Assembly (NCBI GenBank): GCA_018823135.1
Contig: JAHJJF010000074.1
Span: 1 to 48,688 of the forward strand
From: Pseudomonadota bacterium
GTDB taxonomy: Bacteria > Desulfobacterota > Desulfobulbia > Desulfobulbales > CALZHT01
DNA length: 48,688 nt
Direction of reading: 5' to 3'
A model generated the notes under the pieces. The model saw nothing but the letters and a program-made list of their open reading frames with translations. It had not been told where the DNA came from and searched no databases. Of this stretch, positions 194 to 6,379 are shown piece after piece. The position numbers and the translations under genes are program-made. Every line of letters starts with the position of its first letter. Positions within the stretch are counted from its first letter, which is position 1.

Positions 194-227
194 GAAGCCC
201 GACCTAGGCTTCGATGGAGCCGCCTCA
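194..227 (-). promoter_or_regulatory. bacterial SECIS hairpin with UGA(Sec) codon of arsS
   Basis: On the minus strand, TGA (227-225) is followed after 12 nt by stem GAAGCC (212-207), loop TAGGTCG (206-200) and GGCTTC (199-194). The loop contains AGGUC, the same core as the apical loop of the Escherichia coli fdhF SECIS bound by SelB. The UGA-to-loop distance is 18 nt, within the usual range for bacterial SECIS elements. The presumed true stop TAG forms the first three nucleotides of the loop. There is no T-run after the stem on this strand, which argues against a terminator. Confidence 0.75.
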
Positions 228-1196
228 CGTGAAGCCGGCGCCGGCGGTGCAGGCAAAGCAATGATCGCCAATGGCAATGGGAGTTCCTTCCGGAGGTGGC
301 GCGGTAAAATCGGCAACGTGTTGTTTGGAGCCTCCCAGGAACAGGGCCGCTGCCTGGTTGAAGTCGCAGTCGTAGATGGTTCCATCCCATCCAACTGAAA
401 TCAGGCTGCGGCACATAAGTCCGTCAATGGTTTCCGGATTAAAATTGTCCCGTAGTTTTTTCATGTACTGGTCATAATTCCCGGAAGAAAGCAGCCAGCT
501 TTTAAACCTGCCCAGTGGCATGTTGGCGAAGGTATAGAGGTTGTTAAATGTGATGTCCCATTTTCGGGCAAGATCGCGTTTGAACTGTTTCTCGGCGCTG
601 CATTGCGAAACCGGTAGAAAGGCCCCGGAGGGGTTTGCCACCAGATTAAGCTCCAGGCCTGAACCTTCCTTTCCATAGCCATTGCGGTTTAATTTTTTAA
701 GCATGATCAGGCAGTTAGCGAAAACACCTTTTCCTCTTTGTGAGGCGGTCTGGCCTTCATTGGTTGAGGGAAAGGATGAAATAATGGAAACCTTGAGCTT
801 TTTCATGAGCTCAAGAAGATCGTTCCTGTCGCATTCAAACAGGGCGGTGAGATTTGACCGGAAAAGCAGTTTTCCACAAAGAGGGCGCAGGGATTCCATG
901 AGGAAATCGATATCCGGCACCATTTCCGGAGCGCCGCCGGTTATATCGATAATTTCGTACTTAACCTTTTGGGCATGGGAGATTACCGCTTCCATGGTTT
1001 GTCGATCCATGACTTCGGTGCGCAGGGGACCGGCTTCAAGATGACAGTGGCGGCAGGCTTGATTACAAAGAAACCCGGTGTTGATCTGGAGAGTTGCGGT
1101 CTTTCCCCGTTTCAGGTTAAGACCTTGCTGGTCCAGGATCTCACCGAATGTAAGCTCAGTTGCAGTATTCTCTATACAGGCAGGTTCAAGGGGCAT
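204..1196 (-). CDS. arsS: ArsS, arsenosugar biosynthesis radical SAM selenoprotein
   Basis: Radical SAM enzyme of the ArsS family, which attaches a 5'-deoxyadenosyl group to dimethylarsenic in arsenosugar synthesis. The [4Fe-4S]/SAM motif CNQACRHC is at residues 44-51, followed by the family signature HLEAGP. The C-terminus reads CFACTAGAGFT and then hits TGA at 227-225. Family members normally continue with a Cys, or Sec, and then Gly-Gly. Reading TGA as selenocysteine gives Sec324-GGSIEA and a TAG stop at 206-204, for 330 residues. A SECIS-like hairpin follows the TGA. The start is ATG 1196, with a weak Shine-Dalgarno site. The AhpD-like partner ends 6 nt upstream, so the two are one transcript. 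Family assignment is firm. Selenocysteine insertion is inferred from the codon context, the hairpin and the known seleno-form of this family. If TGA terminates instead, the protein has 323 residues and no redox residue at its end. Confidence 0.88.
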
Positions 1197-1202
1197 AATT
1201 CT

Positions 1203-1535
1203 TTACAGGGACATTTTATCCGCGACCTTTCTCATCTGCAGGCCGTGAACCAGGGAAGCGCCGCCGCGGATGGCGGTGACCACATGGATCGCTTCGGTCA
1301 TTTCCGCAGTGTTCGATCCTTTTTCAAGACATGCTGAGGTGTAGGCGTCAATGCAGTAGGGGCATTGAATGGCATGGGCCACAGCTAAAGCGATAAGGGC
1401 CTTTTCACGTTCGGTAAGCTCACCTTCGGCAAAAACCGCTCCGTAATAATCAAAAAATTTCCGGGCAAGTTCAGGGGCATCCTTGCCGATTTCCGAAAAT
1501 TTCGGAAGATCAAGCGGATCATAATAGGTATCCAT
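1203..1535 (-). CDS. arsenosugar-associated AhpD-like peroxidase
   Basis: A 110-residue protein of the carboxymuconolactone decarboxylase/AhpD fold, in the subfamily that travels with ArsS. The redox motif is CPYC within HAIQCPYCIDAYT, preceded by the typical EGELTEREKALIALAVAHA helix. The start at 1535 was chosen because GGAGG (minus strand, 1543-1548) sits 7-8 nt upstream and family members begin MxTYYDP. An in-frame ATG 54 nt upstream has no ribosome site. The gene lies 6 nt before arsS, so the two are co-transcribed. The exact substrate of the peroxidase-like partner is not established. A role in arsenic or arsenosugar redox chemistry is inferred from the pairing. Confidence 0.85.
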   Translation of the reverse strand: MDTYYDPLDLPKFSEIGKDAPELARKFFDYYGAVFAEGELTEREKALIALAVAHAIQCPYCIDAYTSACLEKGSNTAEMTEAIHVVTAIRGGASLVHGLQMRKVADKMSL

Positions 1536-1718
1536 ATACAATTCCTCCATGAAAAGTGATACATCTGGAAAAAATCTTTCAGCCGACAAAATTGACTAAT
1601 TAAATCAATAGGTTATGCGAGTGAGGGGGGAGTGAATCAGGTTCTTGGGATCTCGCCGAGCTCGCGCAGCCTGTATTCCGGCAAATGTCGGATCAAGTGT
1701 AGTTATGATATATGCTAA

Positions 1719-5298: not shown

Positions 5299-5868
5299 TC
5301 AACAGGAACATCCCGAGCCGCAACCGCAACCTTGATCACTTTCATCTGATGAGCCGCAGTCGCAACCCTGGTCATCTTCATCTGACGATCCGCATCCGCA
5401 ACCGCAACCTCCGGCCTCGGCAATAGCGGCTTTTTCTTCCTCCGAAGGCTCACGCACTTCGAGAATTTTGATGGCAAAGTGCAACTGTTTGCCGGCCATC
5501 GGGTGATTGAAATCGGCAACAACTTCTTCATCGGTGACAGATTTAATTTCAAATGATACCGGGCCGTTGGGTCCCTCGGCCTGAAACTGTCCCGGTATGA
5601 GTTCCACATCAGGGGGGAAATGACTGCGGGGTACCGTCTGGCAGAGATCTTCGCGAAATTCGCCATAACCGTCTGCAGGGCCCACTATTATGTTTGCAGA
5701 CTCGCCAATGGACATACCCAGTAATTGATCTTCAAGCCCTGGAATGATCATTCCGGATCCGGTAATAAAGCTTAAGGGTTCTCCTTCCTCGGAGCGATCG
5801 ATTTCCTCACCGGATTCAAGGGTAAGGCAATAATCGATAGCAACATACATATCGTTTGCAATTTTCAT
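5299..5868 (-). CDS. slyD: FKBP-type prolyl isomerase, SlyD-like, Cys-rich tail
   Basis: Cytoplasmic peptidyl-prolyl cis/trans isomerase and metallochaperone family protein of 189 residues. The FKBP halves are visible as LTLESGEEIDRS and GSGMIIPGLEDQLLGM, with the inserted chaperone (IF) flap between about residues 70 and 125, then FNHPMAGKQLHF. The C-terminal tail (about 155-189) has nine cysteines in CGC, CDC and CSC groupings separated by a repeated acidic SSDE unit. The E. coli SlyD tail is His/Cys-rich, while this one has no histidine. SlyD helps deliver nickel to hydrogenase. The hypDE genes in the same window make that role plausible, but it is inferred. The start ATG 5868 has AAGGAG 7 nt upstream. 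A TTG directly before it is not needed. Confidence 0.88.
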   Translation of the reverse strand: MKIANDMYVAIDYCLTLESGEEIDRSEEGEPLSFITGSGMIIPGLEDQLLGMSIGESANIIVGPADGYGEFREDLCQTVPRSHFPPDVELIPGQFQAEGPNGPVSFEIKSVTDEEVVADFNHPMAGKQLHFAIKILEVREPSEEEKAAIAEAGGCGCGCGSSDEDDQGCDCGSSDESDQGCGCGSGCSC

Positions 5869-6379
5869 CAAATTCTCCTTAAAAAATTTACGTAGATGAT
5901 TTCCTGGATCGATGATCGAAGAGTTAACTCACAGAAAATCGTTTAGTGTTATTGAGGGATAATAAAAAATGGCCGGAACTGCTGAACAAGATCAACGAGC
6001 ATTTATCCCCGTCAGGTGAATTTTTTACAACTCAAAGGCGGAGATTATAACCGAATATTGCTCGTCTGCCACTGCGGGTTAGGACCGTGAGGGCGTAAAC
6101 AAGCGAATTTGATCAGGTGAATTTCCTTAATATTCGAAGATTCCTTAGTCCGCTTGAAGCGGTACGAGGTGCTACAATATTTCGGGATTCATGGCCGTAC
6201 CTCAACGTCAAATCAATCAAATACAGTAAGTATCTTTACGGTAAAGGTCAACCTTTTTGCAAAGAAGCGGCAACTTCGGTATCGAGTGAGAGGTTTTTAA
6301 TGTTTTTCGGGTGGGAGCATTCAAGAATATTTCAACATAATTATCATTTGGAAAGGAACCGAGGCTCAGCCGGGTTAGG
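5869..6379 (-). promoter_or_regulatory. noncoding region with likely slyD-like promoter
   Basis: No convincing gene was found in this 511-bp stretch. Reading frames on both strands lack ribosome sites and family-like sequence. On the minus strand a promoter candidate has -10 TATAAT (6049-6044) and -35 GTGGCA (6072-6067) with 17-bp spacing, giving a leader of roughly 170 nt before the slyD-like gene. CCGCTTGAAGCGG (6151-6163) is a short dyad of unknown meaning. Confidence 0.35.

Follow-up and report, generated by a model that had tools for sequence, protein, structure and literature searches.

A probable ArsS selenoprotein gene whose stop codon lies in the loop of its putative SECIS hairpin, a layout shared by most Sec-type relatives

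Introduction

The listing of TIGR04167, 'arsenosugar biosynthesis radical SAM (seleno)protein ArsS', as a selenoprotein family reportedly goes back to the 2005 bSECISearch paper. The family stands among the bacterial selenoprotein families in PMC13188914, which takes the entry, with AAR34688.1 as exemplar, from its reference 13, and which names the coding region as the typical place of bacterial SECIS elements. ArsS enzymes are described as adenosylating arsenic in oxo-arsenosugar synthesis in PMC12159101, citing Cheng et al. 2021. Our own literature search for ArsS together with selenoprotein or arsenosugar gave no paper. Here we analyze a minus-strand arsS gene at the left end of a contig (G000:C74:1-48688; this whole 48,688-nt stretch is referred to as the window). 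Comparison with its relatives leaves us highly confident that the gene belongs, as an ordinary member, to the Sec-containing branch of TIGR04167, with an in-frame UGA that would be decoded as selenocysteine by means of a hairpin at 194-212.

Results

The arsS gene and its recoded C terminus

The standard open reading frame of arsS spans 225-1196 on the minus strand and encodes 323 aa ending in ...CFACTAGAGFT at a TGA (225-227), so that automatic annotation truncates the protein at residue 323 and loses the Sec, as the first-pass annotation had anticipated. Taking this TGA as Sec adds the seven residues UGGSIEA up to a TAG stop at 204-206, for a total of 330 aa; the C terminus then reads ...GFTUGGSIEA in place of the ...HCFACTAGAGFT on which the 323-codon frame ends. 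The features of the locus are as follows.

1203..1589, minus strand: arsenosugar biosynthesis-associated peroxidase-like protein of the AhpD/CMD fold family (TIGR04169, 190.4 bits against a cut-off of 120; PF02627)
204..1196, minus strand: predicted full selenoprotein frame of arsS, 330 aa, with Sec at residue 324, CNQACRHC and DUF3641
225..227, minus strand: UGA, putatively read as selenocysteine (U324), within HCFACTAGAGFT-U-GGS; the same column holds Cys or UGA in 142 distinct relatives
213..224, minus strand: spacer of 12 nt from the UGA to the hairpin, coding for GGSI (from the sequence)
204..206, minus strand: UAG stop codon, its U the closing base of the stem and its A and G the first two loop bases (from sequence and fold)
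194..212, minus strand: putative SECIS hairpin of 7 bp with loop AGGUC at 201-205 (from the fold and from covariation in relatives)

The family identity proposed at first pass is well founded. The 330-aa protein matches TIGR04167 with 384.7 bits over positions 2-303 of 303, and even the 323-aa form without readthrough scores 374.8 bits, against a curated cut-off of 300 bits. The sequence carries the radical SAM CxxxCxxC cluster motif as CNQACRHC and a DUF3641 domain (PF12345, 3.6e-52), together with a PF04055 match (E 4.5e-6) that falls slightly below the gathering score. Upstream of arsS lie the TIGR04169 peroxidase-like partner gene, whose start codon is uncertain (its family match starts at residue 20), and then trpA and trpB. 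Judged by sequence similarity, apart from any family search, a relative from the Desulfobulbaceae (L116) apparently has the same gene order around arsS. Elsewhere in the window, 5299-5871 (minus strand) encodes an FKBP-type peptidylprolyl isomerase, SlyD-like but scoring under the family cut-offs, whose C-terminal tail abounds in GCGCG and GCDCG repeats and is likely metal-binding.

The Sec/Cys column among relatives

The comparison covers the C termini of 142 distinct loci, drawn from Desulfobacterota and from other phyla. The search pattern permitted any residue at the Sec/Cys column for the 80 newly fetched loci; L168, one of the 80 named loci, fell outside the pattern and was left out of the counts. 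The column holds UGA in 87 loci and Cys in the other 55, after 44 and 31, respectively, in a first set of relatives. No third residue occurs among the 142 distinct loci read, which bears out the earlier placing of this TGA, followed by GGS, at the family's Cys/Sec position and leaves no relative with neither residue there. UGA also stands at the Sec position in the closest relatives, which come from the same family and order, and most of the 87 UGA-type loci keep, after the UGA, a conserved GG and a covarying hairpin. One same-family genome (G396) has two arsS genes on separate contigs (C75 and C123), each with one in-frame UGA, that are 62% and 48% identical to the arsS of the window.

The hairpin after the UGA

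On the minus strand the hairpin consists of the arms GAAGCCU (206-212) and GGGCUUC (194-200) around the loop AGGUC (201-205), with a predicted energy of -9.9 kcal/mol and, in the minimum-energy fold, a U-G pair closing the stem. The numerical rules given for bacterial SECIS elements in PMC13188914 are an apical loop of 3-9 nt, an upper stem of 4-16 bp, a loop 16-37 nt past the UGA and an energy of -7.5 kcal/mol or lower, along with a G within the first two loop positions. The arsS hairpin lies inside all four numerical ranges, with a loop of 5 nt, a stem of 7 bp, the AGGUC starting 19 nt past the UGA and the energy given above, and AGGUC has a G within its first two positions. The SECIS-like hairpin 12 nt after the UGA and its AGGUC loop were therefore described correctly at first pass, and the '18-nt distance' to the loop was right to within a base (19 nt in the window, 17 nt in E. 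coli fdhF). The one departure concerns the coding region, since the frame ends in the loop and the 3' arm is untranslated; a SECIS partly outside the coding region is a departure from the usual and no defining failure.

Taken singly, the arsS hairpin is modest evidence, suggestive and not conclusive. Among other UGA-ended frames of the window and the named relatives, 34 of 420 are followed by a hairpin that passes the rules (at or below -7.5 kcal/mol), and 7 of 420 by one with its loop at the arsS distance; within the window, the only such hairpin among 20 UGA-ended frames is that of arsS. When the 23-nt stretch of the hairpin is shuffled, just 4 of 200 versions fold equally well, and a longer 40-nt stretch has no unusual stability (z -0.27), so stability is weak evidence that we do not use by itself. 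An Rfam scan of the window gave no match at gathering scores.

Comparison across relatives is what we regard as making the hairpin evidence decisive. A MAFFT alignment of the SECIS region failed to place the UGA-stop and UAG-stop classes in a common pairing register and shifted the row of the window by three bases; a script therefore counted covariation, letting the register vary over five positions in the data and in the shuffles alike. As a null, the 3' arms were redistributed among loci 5000 times. Across the 87 UGA-type loci the mean stem is 4.31 bp against a shuffled 3.00 (sd 0.11, maximum 3.39), a pairing reached in 0 of 5000 shuffles, in which the kinship of the sequences remains. The covariation stands separately for UGA-stop, UAG-stop and other UGA-type loci, with compensating G-C, A-U, U-A and C-G pairs at the third and fourth stem levels throughout, and the hairpin sits in a near-fixed register to the UGA. 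The Cys-type loci, which served as the negative control, are without the hairpin and pair at 1.80 against 1.52 bp, inside the shuffled range.

Within the GFT-motif group, one Cys-type arsS (L158) has AGACC-UAGGGUAU-GGUCU after its UGC, with a UAG at the usual place; this hairpin has the look of a SECIS left over from a change of Sec to Cys. Two further Cys-type genes of the group (L132 and L159) have a UAG stop at the same distance.

The stop codon within the loop

The A and G of the UAG stop are, as had been noted, the first two bases of the loop, and its U closes the stem. The first-pass annotation called this layout unusually compact, a description that does not survive comparison: the stop overlaps the apical loop in 76 of the 87 UGA-type arsS genes and lies exactly 18 nt after the Sec codon in 71 of them. 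As far as these sequences go, the layout is the norm of Sec-containing ArsS and nothing unusual. The 76 loop-overlapping stops comprise 45 UGA, 31 UAG and no UAA, whereas UAA ends 17 of the 55 Cys-type genes (Fisher 7e-8 for UAA use in UGA-type versus Cys-type genes, phylogeny ignored), and the tail after the column is usually 5 residues in the Cys-type versus 6 in the Sec-type. A G comes directly after each of the 45 UGA stops at +18 (GT in 31, GG in 14), unlike at Cys-type stops, with AGUU and AGGU among the resulting loops; after the UAG stops at +18 the next base is U or G in 26 of 26 cases, and the loops are AGUU, AGGU or AGGUC. Most of the 11 exceptions have a similar hairpin with a sense codon (CAG, CCG or CGG, for example) at the stop's place, and the protein continues for some codons; two of the 11 (L059 and L060) belong to a divergent motif type.

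Selenocysteine machinery in the genome

The machinery that the first-pass annotation pointed to is present as selA (C41, 641.6 bits), selC (tRNA-Sec with anticodon UCA, C140, 70.5 bits) and selD (C52), the last itself of Sec type, with its own in-frame UGA followed by a hairpin of -11.2 kcal/mol. For selB, queries with the whole family, with a same-family relative's protein and with the SelB-wing_3 domain did not find the gene in the assembly. The matches to the selB queries look like EF-Tu and other translational GTPases, and the wing domain gave nothing. The assembly consists of 157 contigs and is 95.33% complete, and for this reason we ascribe the missing selB to an assembly gap; the gene likely lies outside the assembled part of the genome. 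The selB cut-off was passed in 15 of the 18 genomes of the relatives search, and one same-family genome has selB matches only as fragments on separate contigs. The counterpart of a gene that adjoins selB in a same-family relative could be located in the present genome, where it has different neighbours, so the gap could not be placed.

Two further genes came to light. Adjoining the Sec-type selD and DsrE-like genes on C52 is a selenoprotein gene of the TsoC family (NF045708, NEPxGxxU, 143.8 bits; L048, 3294-3608, minus strand), in which the Sec codon is followed by a hairpin with a GGU loop (-7.1 kcal/mol) and a second in-frame UGA near the end, without such a hairpin, is probably the stop. 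On C112, a methyltransferase-like gene (L197, 951-1844, plus strand) is distantly ArsM-like (180.8 bits, below the cut-off of 263) and has two in-frame UGAs, in NSNCUPPSD and SQUIGGT; it is possibly an arsenic-related double selenoprotein.

Discussion

The frame, the family, the Sec/Cys column, the covarying hairpin and the placement of stops in relatives are all directly visible at this locus and in its family, and they provide a framework for how the gene may be decoded. In the mechanism that we propose, SelB carrying Sec-tRNA, presumably acting as it does in E. coli, would bind the hairpin at 194-212 and bring Sec to the UGA at 225-227; the ribosome would then unwind the hairpin, append GGSIEA and end at the UAG that had formed the hairpin's top. 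Because Sec lies near the C terminus, a SECIS at the required distance would straddle the end of the frame and absorb the stop into its loop, and because the loop needs a G, UGA and UAG would suit it, by supplying or preceding that G, and UAA would not. We incline, with some reserve, towards a further step in which, across Sec-containing ArsS, selection keeps the termination codon within the loop that SelB binds, as a dual-purpose codon restricted to UGA(G) and UAG with the tail length set by SECIS geometry, and in which termination may have a physical link to the SECIS being released or refolding. The Sec itself may serve catalysis or the redox chemistry of arsenical adenosylation; our guess would be that it provides a thiol/selenol site where As(III) binds, or that it acts in redox together with the neighbouring CxxC.

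Other readings of the same sequence have to be weighed. It is very unlikely that the UGA is a true stop, either of a 323-aa ArsS that does without the last residues or of a gene that a recent nonsense change has broken. The standard annotation with its 323-aa frame and the lack of a selB in the assembly would both fit; the same codon is shared by 87 distinct loci, mostly with the conserved GG and the covarying hairpin, and a fresh nonsense change is not expected to be conserved across a phylum. Another reading takes the repeat at 194-212 for a transcription terminator, or for an inverted repeat that arose by chance, in place of a SECIS; in its favour, hairpins of similar strength follow 8% of other UGA-ended frames. 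We consider this most improbable: the hairpin accompanies UGA-type and not Cys-type arsS and keeps its register to the UGA, while past it the coding strand continues with CCAAAAAAC and no U run, and folding places a better terminator-like repeat at about 131-150, downstream of the hairpin.

Recoding of the stop within the loop, UGA or UAG, might extend the protein further, a thought invited by the 45 relatives in which a second in-frame UGA occupies the loop, 18 nt past the first one. We give it hardly any credence, since the peptides past the second stop vary among the relatives listed, the tail before it is conserved, and the stop of the window is a UAG, which a Sec-tRNA with anticodon UCA is not expected to read. 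A single Sec at residue 324, followed by termination in the loop, is the reading that we retain.

This arrangement has practical consequences. Standard gene calling drops seven residues of ArsS, Sec among them, and SECIS finders that require the hairpin in the coding region would miss most ArsS selenoproteins; the family-wide arrangement thus departs mildly from the statement in PMC13188914 that places bacterial SECIS elements there. The family offers natural cases of one codon acting both as stop signal and as top of the recoding hairpin, and is convenient for asking how decoding directed by SelB coexists with termination 18 nt away. The literature that we searched, with most subscription papers outside our reach, held no statement of the stop-in-loop rule, which is no proof that it is unreported. 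The rule is a small observation, and the arsS of the window is an added member of a known family.

Compared with the listed ArsS/TIGR04167 selenoprotein, the gene scores above the cut-off and has its C-terminal Sec in the same motif; nothing material sets it apart, the window being from another species with an assembly without a detected selB. A relative from Geobacter sp. (L082, the same place as L151) shows the same layout, with UAG in an AGGUC loop. Cys-type ArsS shares the family and the C-terminal motif, with Cys at the Sec position, and differs in having no covarying hairpin, a tail usually one residue shorter and common use of UAA as stop. The SECIS of E. coli fdhF likewise presents AGGUC atop a paired stem, 17 nt past the UGA as against 19 nt in the window, on a stem that is longer than that of arsS and has bulges. 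Unlike arsS, where the second half of the element belongs to the 3' untranslated region and the loop takes in the stop codon, fdhF keeps its whole SECIS within the coding region.
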